This document shows positions 43,501-46,039 of a stretch of DNA of 64,000 nt, in pieces (positions within the stretch are counted from its first letter, which is position 1; the number at the start of each line of letters is the position of its first letter). The position numbers and the translations under genes were made by a program. The notes beneath the pieces are model-generated. The model was not told the DNA's origin, searched no databases, and saw only the letters and a program-made list of their open reading frames with translations. The DNA is from Argopecten irradians (lineage: Eukaryota > Mollusca > Bivalvia > Pectinida > Pectinidae): positions 22,551,655 through 22,615,654 of the forward strand of contig NC_091137.1 of NCBI RefSeq assembly GCF_041381155.1, written 5' to 3'.

Positions 43501-46039
43501 TGTGCCAGGTCCCTGTGCACTACAGTTGATTGATAATTTATAAAACATAAAATCTTTTATGTTTTGATACTGATAATAACATCTTTGCATCTGTTATTTA
43601 TTCTCATTATTATGATGACTTCCATGTACTGACCATGAAAAAAACCCACCAAAACAACAGATATTCAAGAGATGCAGTTTTATGAAAACTAAGAGATGTC
43701 AGGAGGGTGACCTCTTATGTAAATATACTCAAAGACTCCCTGAGTTTTATGATGCATGACATTTTCTTTTTGCTTGCCAGGTGATTCTGTTGCTGGTACC
43801 CGACTGATATTAGACTAAAAATGTCTTTAAGATGTGATGCCCCATTTCCATATATCAAAGCAGGATGGGATGTACTGTGCACCAAATTGTTTCCACAGTG
43901 ATTTAATTTTGTATTTAAATCCATCTTCTTATTGATTCAATAAATAGTAATTTAGATTCATGTGCTTCTACTATATCAAAGTTCGACAAATTTTTGCAGA
44001 GAACTATTTCCATCAATTTAATCTGACCTGAAATATACAAACGTTAATCATACATGTATGTGAAATGAGTTGTTTTATAGTGTCCAATCACCCCATTCCC
44101 ATTTATGGCAGGACATAAAAATAGAACTGTATGCATGCCATCTTGTTACTCACCCCAGTTTCCTTGGAAGCCTCAGCTACTTCTTGTATAACACTCTCAT
44201 CGACAAACAGACGGACAGCATCATGTATCAACACCACATCAGAGGGCTCCAAAACTGAAACAAAAACAAATAATAGGATTTGTTGTATAGTTAGCAGATT
44301 GACACAAAATCAGTTGATTTATGTTGTAAGTTCAGATATAATTCTATGACATGCCTACTCACCAAGTTATAGATAAAGCCACATATCGAGGATGAAGTTC
44401 CAATGTCTTATAGGCTGTGTTTACGTCAATCAAACAAATTCAGTTGGGAATGTAAAATTCTATTTATAGACCCTAGTTCAAGAGTCATGAATAAAAAAAT
44501 GTGTTATTCCCGAGGGGCTCCCATCACCACCATCACTTTGTTGTAACTACATACCTGATTTCAGGGCGTTAATACCATTGTATATAGACCTATGATGGGT
44601 TTGAGTTCATCTCACCACCATCACTTTGTTGTAAAATAACTATGTACCTGATTTCAGGGCCTTTATACCATTGTATATAGACCTGTGACGGGTTTGAGTT
44701 CATCTCACTACCATCACTTTGTTGTAAGTACATACCTGATTTCAAGGCCTTTATGCCATTGTTGTAGATAGACCAATGACAGGTTTGGGCTCCCCTCACT
44801 GCCATCACTTTGTTGTAACCATGTAACTGATTTCAGGGCCTTTATACCATTGTATATAGACCTATGACGGGTTTGAGCTCCCCTAACCATTATCACTTTG
44901 TTGTAACCATGTAACTGGTTTCAGGGCCTTTATACCATTGTATAGACCTATGAGGGGTTTGAGCTCCCCTAACCATTATCACTTTGTTGTAACCATGTAA
45001 CTGATTTCAGGGCCTTTATACCATTGTATGTAGACCTATGACGGGTTTGAGCTCTCCTCATCACCATCACTTTGTTATAACTACGTACCTGATTTCAGGG
45101 CCTTTATACCATTGTATATGGACCTATGACAGGTTTGAGCTCCCCTCACCATTATCACTTTGTTGTAACCACGTACCTGATTTCAGGGCCTTTATGCCGT
45201 TGTATATAGACCTATGACGGGTTTGAGCTCCCCTCACTACCATCACTTTATTGTAACCATGGCTCTCCACCAGCTCTTCTATATAATCCACATAGCCCTG
45301 GGACACTACCACAACAATGTGCTTCACAAAGCTCAGTCTGTACAGAATGGGAATTAATTTTGTATATGCATATTACAGAGTTATCAGTCCTTACAGTTAA
45401 AAGTACCGATTGTTTCATCATATTTTTTCAAAAGAAATGACGTAATTTCATCTCAATTGATAACAGCATAGGAGATAACTCAATAATATTTACAGACAGA
45501 ATAATTAACTTAGGGGTATATAAAGCACATAATCTTGTATTGACTGCTCACCTTATAACTATAACGATTATAATTATCCATAACATTATTTAACATTACC
45601 ATAATGAAAAAGACCTGACCCCATGCAGTTTCATGAATATTCCTTAGAGTATTGGTAATTTATCATTAACTTATGCTAATTTTTGTTTTCTAAAATCCTG
45701 TAATTCCTTCCTATGGAGAATTTTAAGTTAAGAAGTTCCTTAAGGATATGAAAAAAAAAACCACATTAATTTAAAAACACAAATGTGCTACATGTACTAA
45801 ATATCATGTCTCGTCAATTAAAAAGCATTGCTTTCTACATACAAACAACATAAAACAATTTTTTTCAAATTGTTTGAAATATGTAAAATACTTTACGTGT
45901 GGAAGTTGTGAATTGTGTAGAGGATGATAGGCCTGTCCAGTACAGAGCAGAACTGTTTCGGCATAGAATTTCCAAATCTTTCTCCTGTCCCTCCAGCAGG
46001 CAGGACAATACTTATGGGTAATTCATCTGTGTCGGCCAT
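40565..46039 (-). CDS. CRPPA: D-ribitol-5-phosphate cytidylyltransferase CRPPA/ISPD, nine exons, 395 aa
   Basis: CRPPA makes CDP-ribitol from CTP and ribitol-5-phosphate. FKTN and FKRP use it to build the matriglycan core on dystroglycan. Exons, 5' to 3': 45897-46039, 45177-45337, 44154-44254, 42861-43010, 42137-42241, 41831-41876, 41605-41693, 40961-41251 and 40565-40666, in all 1188 nt. The IspD-type motifs appear in order: [18 protein letters not shown] (CTP loop), [51 protein letters not shown], and [18 protein letters not shown], which matches the vertebrate protein. The C-terminal domain is shorter than in human CRPPA (451 aa) and ends [11 protein letters not shown]. The family's HDA(A/V)RPF has Leu in place of Pro. 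Exon 2 is followed by seven degenerate copies of its own end. RNF113 lies head to head, 2.85 kb away. Confidence 0.95.
42245..42400. repeat. Short minisatellite (about 45-50 bp, three units)
   Basis: Tandem units of AATATATATACAATGTACATG followed by TAGC, in the CRPPA intron just upstream of exon 5. Tyr/Ile/Cys-rich open frames over it are the repeat read through and are not genes. Confidence 0.75.
44553..45176 (-). repeat. Seven intronic tandem copies of the 3' end of CRPPA exon 2
   Basis: The unit is about 88 bp: roughly 80 bp of exon 2 coding sequence ([19 protein letters not shown] region) plus the 5' splice site. Copies end near 44560, 44648, 44738, 44828, 44916, 45001 and 45088; the functional exon end is at 45177. 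Coding text is largely kept ([24 protein letters not shown], with variants such as [20 protein letters not shown]). Four copies keep CAG/GTA(T/C)-type donors (45088, 44738, 44648, 44560). The other three share TCAGTTACAT, which destroys the normal donor. No acceptor-like tract separates the copies, so they are not complete extra exons. Confidence 0.85.
45358..45497. mobile_element. Foldback MITE (copy 2), CRPPA intron 1
   Basis: TATGCATATTACAGAGTTATC at the left is mirrored by GGAGATAACTCAATAAT at the right. The core matches the MITE at 11330, with a shorter, more degraded palindrome. Confidence 0.45.

Follow-up and report, generated by a model that had tools for sequence, protein, structure and literature searches.

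Tandem repeats that straddle the border between an exon and an intron have already been described in human genes. The CBS gene carries a 31-bp VNTR, c.1444_1467+7(16_21), whose repeats differ from each other by single nucleotides; by its numbering the unit is made of 24 exonic and 7 intronic nucleotides, i.e., an exon end and its donor have been amplified into the intron (PMC2630376, from the part of the report available). Internal tandem repeats are also found at exon–intron boundaries of human duplicated genes, with possible effects on splicing (PMC2812944, available in part). In a third case, as told in the one available passage that describes it, a splice junction is duplicated and the duplication is tolerated because one of the two sites is strongly preferred. 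That passage speaks of a donor; judging by its title, the original report (Romano 2002) reportedly places the duplicated junction at the 3′ splice site.

An array of this kind occurs in Argopecten irradians, within a 64,000-nt stretch of DNA that was analysed as a whole (the window). It consists of the 3′ end of exon 2 of the CRPPA/ISPD gene together with its 5′ splice site, repeated in tandem into intron 2, and it belongs to the already known exon-boundary repeats. As in CBS, the exon end and the donor are both part of the unit, and the tandem copies carry competing predicted donors. The two differ in unit length (31 bp in CBS vs 88 bp in CRPPA), copy number (16–21 vs 8) and exonic content of the unit (24 vs 82 nt), and the CBS repeat is polymorphic in people, whereas the CRPPA array is known from one assembly (PMC2630376, same part). 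With the repeats of human duplicated genes it shares the expansion of a minisatellite across an exon border, but those vary between recent paralogues and make novel introns, whereas the CRPPA array enters an intron with its own acceptor at exon 3 (PMC2812944, same part). The duplicated splice junction is tolerated, as the CRPPA array probably is, and differs in having one extra copy and, reportedly, in lying at the 3′ splice site. Among the papers listed by searches on minisatellites or VNTRs (exon-border, splice-donor or molluscan), no title or abstract opening described the CRPPA array or such arrays in bivalves.

The CRPPA gene and the array at exon 2

A CRPPA/ISPD gene lies on the minus strand of the window, its IspD domain between 41831 and 46039. 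The in-frame join of six exons yields 235 residues that match the IspD profile PF01128 (E = 1.4e-39). The best match among the PDB chains listed is 4cvh (E = 9.6e-73), annotated as an isoprenoid synthase domain-containing protein, which we take to be human ISPD. The motif TRHRSIYNG of the CRPPA protein aligns with TRHRSIFNG of 4cvh, and an HDAVR stretch, from exon 3 onward, is common to both. The identification as a CRPPA/ISPD cytidylyltransferase gene, called CRPPA in the original prediction, is thus supported by sequence similarity, which among the PDB chains is closest to ISPD. The ISPD_C profile has no match in the window, its four below-cut-off matches all lying on other contigs, and no Rfam family matches within the window at gathering score. 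A PF01128 search of the same genome gave no CRPPA paralogue or retrocopy at E <= 0.001, a result that is uninformative because the gene's own short exons were missed too. The coding exons are the following:

45897..46039, minus strand: first coding exon, from the ATG to the donor (sequence reading)
45177..45337, minus strand: exon 2, 161 nt, of which the last 82 nt are the founding unit; ends AATCAG/GTACGT (sequence reading and protein match)
44154..44254, minus strand: exon 3, acceptor TTTCAG at 44254, the target of donor choice (sequence reading)
42861..43010, minus strand: exon 4 (sequence reading)
42137..42241, minus strand: exon 5, the frame needing 42137 as its end (sequence reading and PF01128 match)
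41831..41876, minus strand: exon 6 (sequence reading)

Exon 2 is flanked by introns of 559 nt upstream and 922 nt downstream, the latter ending at its own acceptor at exon 3. At the other end of the gene, an acceptor-like TTTTTTCAG is found 2 nt before the presumed start codon (window 46039-46060), which suggests an untranslated exon of CRPPA further upstream.

At 44517-45259 TRF detected the array as 8.4 units of 88 bp (score 1022, 86% matches), a minisatellite in the usual sense of head-to-tail units of roughly 10-100 bp. The unit is built of the last 82 nt of exon 2 followed by GTACGT, so that it takes in the end of the exon as well as the donor. One copy is exonic (c0) and seven, of 86-93 nt each, are intronic (c1 to c7, in the order of transcription):

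44517..45258, minus strand: the array as a whole, eight full 88-bp units (3′ end of exon 2 with its 5′ splice site) in tandem and a 32-nt partial ninth (TRF, unit alignment)
45171..45258, minus strand: c0, exonic copy including 6 donor nt, presumed functional donor, U1 -9.0 (unit alignment, as for all units below)
45083..45170, minus strand: c1, intronic, GTACGT intact, U1 -9.5; holds the stop 45124-45126 and a donor-like site at 45150
44995..45082, minus strand: c2, donor lost (CAG/TTACAT)
44909..44994, minus strand: c3, donor lost, 2-nt deletion, 98% identical to c4
44821..44908, minus strand: c4, donor lost
44730..44820, minus strand: c5, GTATGT intact, U1 -9.7, 3-nt insertion
44642..44729, minus strand: c6, weak donor GTACAT, U1 -7.1, stop in the exon frame
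44549..44641, minus strand: c7, strongest decoy, GTATGT, U1 -9.9, 5-nt insertion (frameshift), aligned-frame stop as in c6
44517..44548, minus strand: partial ninth unit, the first 32 nt; unique intron beyond

TRF and the unit alignment agree with each other, and with the original prediction, on eight tandem units of about 88 bp, seven of them intronic, and the composition of the unit bears out the proposed origin from an exon end and its 5′ splice site. The extent first given, 44553-45257, was right as to location, but the array begins 82 nt inside the exon and passes the last donor to reach 44517. A tandem duplication of a coding exon was considered as a description of the layout and rejected: the units abut directly, six of the seven intronic lengths are not multiples of 3, and stops or frameshifts are present in c3, c6 and c7, acceptors within the units having been assessed at the CAG in front of each donor.

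Divergence of the copies

The intronic copies are 86-91% identical to the exon copy and 81-98% identical to each other (gaps left out). A search of the 846-Mb assembly with the 824-nt stretch matched one place, on a 53-Mb contig, and a single-unit query gave nine matches, all inside the array and none elsewhere in the genome (these DNA counts are lower bounds). The copies therefore make it highly improbable that the array is an assembly artefact, in which a single exon end had been multiplied by the assembler: they differ by 2-19% from each other, three have private indels, and they lie together at a single site of a 53-Mb contig. Comparable arrays beside other exons of the same genome (see below) also speak against it.

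Two of the units, c3 (44909-44994) and c4 (44821-44908), are 98% identical and have their donor loss in common, which points to local re-amplification inside the array, as had been anticipated. The copy tree is weakly supported and no further order of events is drawn from it. Two fixed differences set the exon copy apart from the seven intronic ones. Both are synonymous, a pattern to be expected under constraint on the exon, provided that its copies have not overwritten it in recent times. In the aligned exon frame, c6 and c7 contain a stop and c3 and c7 a frameshifting indel, while c1, c2, c4 and c5 are open. Among the intronic copies there are 27 distinct variants at coding positions (10 at first, 5 at second and 12 at third codon positions), 11 of them synonymous, 15 nonsynonymous and one a stop, where 27.6% synonymous would be expected (p = 0.10). 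Leaving out two synonymous variants present in five and six of the seven copies, which are probable changes on the exon side, 9 of 25 are synonymous (p = 0.23). The synonymous excess is mild and, with 27 or 25 variants, not significant as a sign of coding constraint on the intronic copies; it leans against a neutral reading of them, as do the open frames of four of the seven.

Donor sites in the array and their predicted use

The last exonic bases of the eight units are 45177, 45089, 45001, 44915, 44827, 44736, 44648 and 44555, and the five donors originally listed agree with these to within about 5 nt. The GT is kept in five units: the exon itself, a weak decoy (44648) and three strong ones (45089, 44736 and 44555). 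The energies of pairing with the 5′ end of U1 are, in unit order, -9.0 (real donor), -9.5 (c1), -1.1 for each of the next three, -9.7 (c5), -7.1 and -9.9 (c7) kcal/mol, so the real donor is not the strongest, and three of the four intronic copies with a GT (4/7) equal or exceed it. Four good intronic donors had been predicted; four do keep the GT, but only three are good, as 44648 (GTACAT) has lost the G at +5, with a PWM score of 6.1 vs 10.4 for the real donor (PWM with generic frequencies). The three dead donors, at 45001, 44915 and 44827, all read CAG/TTACAT, with the +1 G>T and the +5 A in common, which confirms the single donor-destroying change noticed earlier. An unrelated donor-like site, ATG/GTGAGG, lies in c1 at 45150 (PWM 10.0). 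Counting it with the three unit donors, there are four sites with PWM >= 9.44 in the 659 nt of intronic array, vs 18 in 62,542 nt in the rest of the window's minus strand (0.29 per kb); against that background density, the three unit donors alone give p = 0.001.

Whichever of the seven later units exon 2 is extended to, with a live donor or a dead one, the reading frame runs into one and the same stop codon, at 45124-45126, after 118 aa. Every extension meets it, and hence no unit decoy gives a variant enzyme, only loss of product; exons 3 onward, including the HDAVR stretch, would be dropped. This weakens the idea, raised at the outset, that competing donors could give alternative transcripts. 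From the last decoy (44555), an intron of 300 nt would be left up to exon 3.

Loss of product could itself be a function. The decoys might be used measurably and lower or tune CRPPA output, the message being destroyed through the stop in c1 and copy number acting as a dial, as has been claimed for the CBS VNTR. The latter is reportedly linked to reduced activity, going by the title of Lievers 2001, and three further observations count on the same side: in U1 pairing, three decoys are no weaker than the real donor; the intronic array has more sites with PWM >= 9.44 per kb than the remaining minus strand of the window; and all unit decoys lead to the stop. However, the donor enrichment is a trivial outcome of copying an exon end, and exon definition, with introns of 559 and 922 nt, favors the first donor. 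There is also no sign of selection for or against the CRPPA decoys: the GT is lost in three of the seven copies, but 19 of the 87 dinucleotides of the unit are changed in at least as many, so GT loss is no commoner than other unit changes. We regard such a dial as unlikely.

How the spliceosome chooses among such donors has been addressed with human data. In human minigenes with two identical donors and 365-nt introns, the upstream donor was used exclusively, and near-equal donors flanked by long introns likewise favor the upstream site (PMC9225289, from the part available). In the same part of that report, the downstream, intron-proximal donor stays preferred for short introns and, before strength was equalised, it was the favored one in about 60% of all events, with a majority in each of the four intron classes. 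In the CRPPA array the right donor is not singled out by its exon context, because the exon sequence upstream is repeated in front of each decoy. By analogy with this rule from human cells, the first donor (45177) is most likely to win by exon definition. Of the two outcomes originally put forward, that the first donor wins is thus the better reading and has the minigene precedent (PMC9225289, same part), tempered by the downstream preference seen before equalisation.

Each CAG/GT could alternatively act first as an acceptor and then as a donor, the array being shortened stepwise by recursive splicing before joining exon 3. The CAG is present in all eight units and CAG/GT in five, and tandem copying of AG/GT is a proposed route to intron gain (PMC2891723, in the part available), which would fit such a scheme. 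Acceptors inside the units were judged only at the CAG preceding each donor, and there the tract is pyrimidine-poor, with a fraction of 0.41 in seven of the eight units compared with 0.47-0.76 at six of the gene's acceptors, including a presumed one; c7, with 0.53, is above the poorest of these. Recursive splicing has, in our estimate, only a very slight chance of being correct.

The array is probably best explained as a neutral exon-border minisatellite, a tolerated by-product of the frequent origin of minisatellites in a repeat-rich genome, whose decoys are nearly silent while the first donor is taken. Tandem duplication over the border of exon 2 with intron 2 would have copied the last 82 nt and the donor, and unequal exchange or slippage would then have led to growth to eight units, in the course of which one donor-dead variant spread to three of them. 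The result would be neutral intron baggage, one of the genome's many minisatellites whose founding unit chanced to straddle an exon edge. Exon 2, at 161 nt between introns of the lengths given above, would be defined across the exon, and any slip to a decoy would produce a message with an early stop, an expected target of nonsense-mediated decay.

Arrays at other exon edges and elsewhere in the window

As a control, 78 PF00069 kinase-domain exon matches of the same genome were used, from 70 loci (247 kb), out of 142 listed; the 30 best-scoring were taken and 48 more roughly by score, some being skipped, so the sample is not random and covers kinase exons only. Their 156 edges are an upper bound on real borders, since the ends of profile matches are not always exon ends, and splice junctions were read by eye from the sequence. 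Comparing each match with its own flanks gave hits at six matches, overlapping the edge at L054, L068, L072 and L084 and confined to the flank at L050 and L077. TRF arrays span three of the 156 edges (L054, L068 and L072). In total, 66 TRF arrays cover 9.5% of the control loci. Placed at random, they would be expected to span 2.1 edges under a seed model and 2.5 with pseudo-borders; over 156 edges, the three seen are no evidence of preferential seeding at exon edges (P about 0.35-0.46). Measured from the splice junction, the exonic part of the array is 18 nt long in L068, 17 nt in L072 and about 3 nt in L054. The profile match of L054 starts in the intron, and this locus fails the 9-nt floor of the pseudo-border null. 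The proportion of exon edges with an array is therefore 3/156 (95% interval 0.4-5.5%), or 2/156 (0.2-4.6%) counting only arrays well into the exon. Whether two or three are counted, arrays at exon edges are about as frequent as chance predicts, as would be expected if minisatellites arise anywhere and do not spare exon edges; the sample is too small to speak against a moderate excess or purging. Together with the human CBS repeat, which has the same architecture, this chance rate argues against the earlier view that a minisatellite born from an exon end is unusual.

The two control arrays that reach well into an exon are:

G000:C11, exon match 9429227-9429556, minus strand: L068, 39-bp array, at 1856-3463 in the oriented sequence (reverse complement) together with L085 (TRF, BLAST of flanks)
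G000:C9, exon match 39078933-39079148, minus strand: L072, 46-bp array of 18 units, at 741-1572 in the oriented sequence (reverse complement) (sequence reading)

In L068, whose kinase is closest among the PDB chains to STK32A (4fr4, E = 3.2e-52), some 1.6 kb of 39-bp units follow the exon end ACATTATCCATAG/GTAAGT and include this end with its donor; AGGTAAGT recurs exactly seven more times downstream, as far as 1566 nt away. The stretch of sequence covered yielded no further exon on that side with the kinase motifs expected. The GT is lost in 10 of the first 14 regular decoys, and 12 of 38 dinucleotides are changed in at least as many copies, i.e., there is no enrichment. In L072, a MAPK/CDK-like kinase by its PDB matches and perhaps NLK, the last unit comprises the acceptor and the first 17 nt of the kinase exon, preceded by 17 upstream decoy acceptors. 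The AG is intact in 13 of these and lost by AG>AA in four, again with no enrichment, as 9 of 45 dinucleotides are changed in at least as many copies. The copy at the far end carries more of the exon, comparable to the partial ninth unit of the CRPPA array. As in CRPPA, the terminal unit of both arrays is the exon border, with decoys following (donors, L068) or preceding it (acceptors, L072); unlike CRPPA, their units are shorter and include only 17-18 exonic nt, and L072 lies on the acceptor side.

The remaining edges carry smaller repeats. L054 has a two-copy duplication of a 112-bp unit (2432-2655, 93%) at a kinase exon acceptor, about 3 nt into the exon. At L084 (oriented about 1526-1598) a two-copy pair at an acceptor, 78% identical by BLAST and including 11 exonic nt, was missed by TRF and is outside the three. 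L050 contains an intronic minisatellite, 44 copies of a 34-bp unit (1-1499, 98% matches), that ends 34 nt before the kinase match.

Taken with CRPPA, these loci raise the tentative possibility, which we hold to be somewhat doubtful, that the genome maintains a standing library of exon-border minisatellites, at roughly one to a few percent of exon edges, with matched decoys beside working sites; if these decoys are silent, that would demonstrate that even massive loads of them are tolerated by exon definition in vivo. If so, CRPPA with its eight units, the STK32-like exon and the L072 exon would be natural replicates of the classic duplicated-splice-site experiment, offering matched natural tests, on the donor and the acceptor side, of how the spliceosome chooses among near-identical neighboring sites. 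The recurrence of such arrays in this genome is more interesting than the single array, and it rests on three control cases, one of them marginal. Exon-border arrays are also a possible source of exon-boundary errors in gene annotation.

Elsewhere in the window, three long arrays with a nearly identical 157-bp consensus (24579-26951, 29787-33398 and 36234-39220) occupy its G+C-richer part, the first two being followed by a GACG-rich stretch (26958-27017 and 33405-33464). Arrays of a related 43-bp unit (13178-13572 and 15633-16214) lie on either side of a 326-bp array (13760-15365). Long open frames that by eye resemble a reverse-transcriptase tail (5198-5929, minus strand), a mariner-type transposase (19933-20658, plus strand), an AIG1/GIMAP GTPase (22798-23847, plus strand) and a C1q domain (57430-57927, minus strand) are also present.
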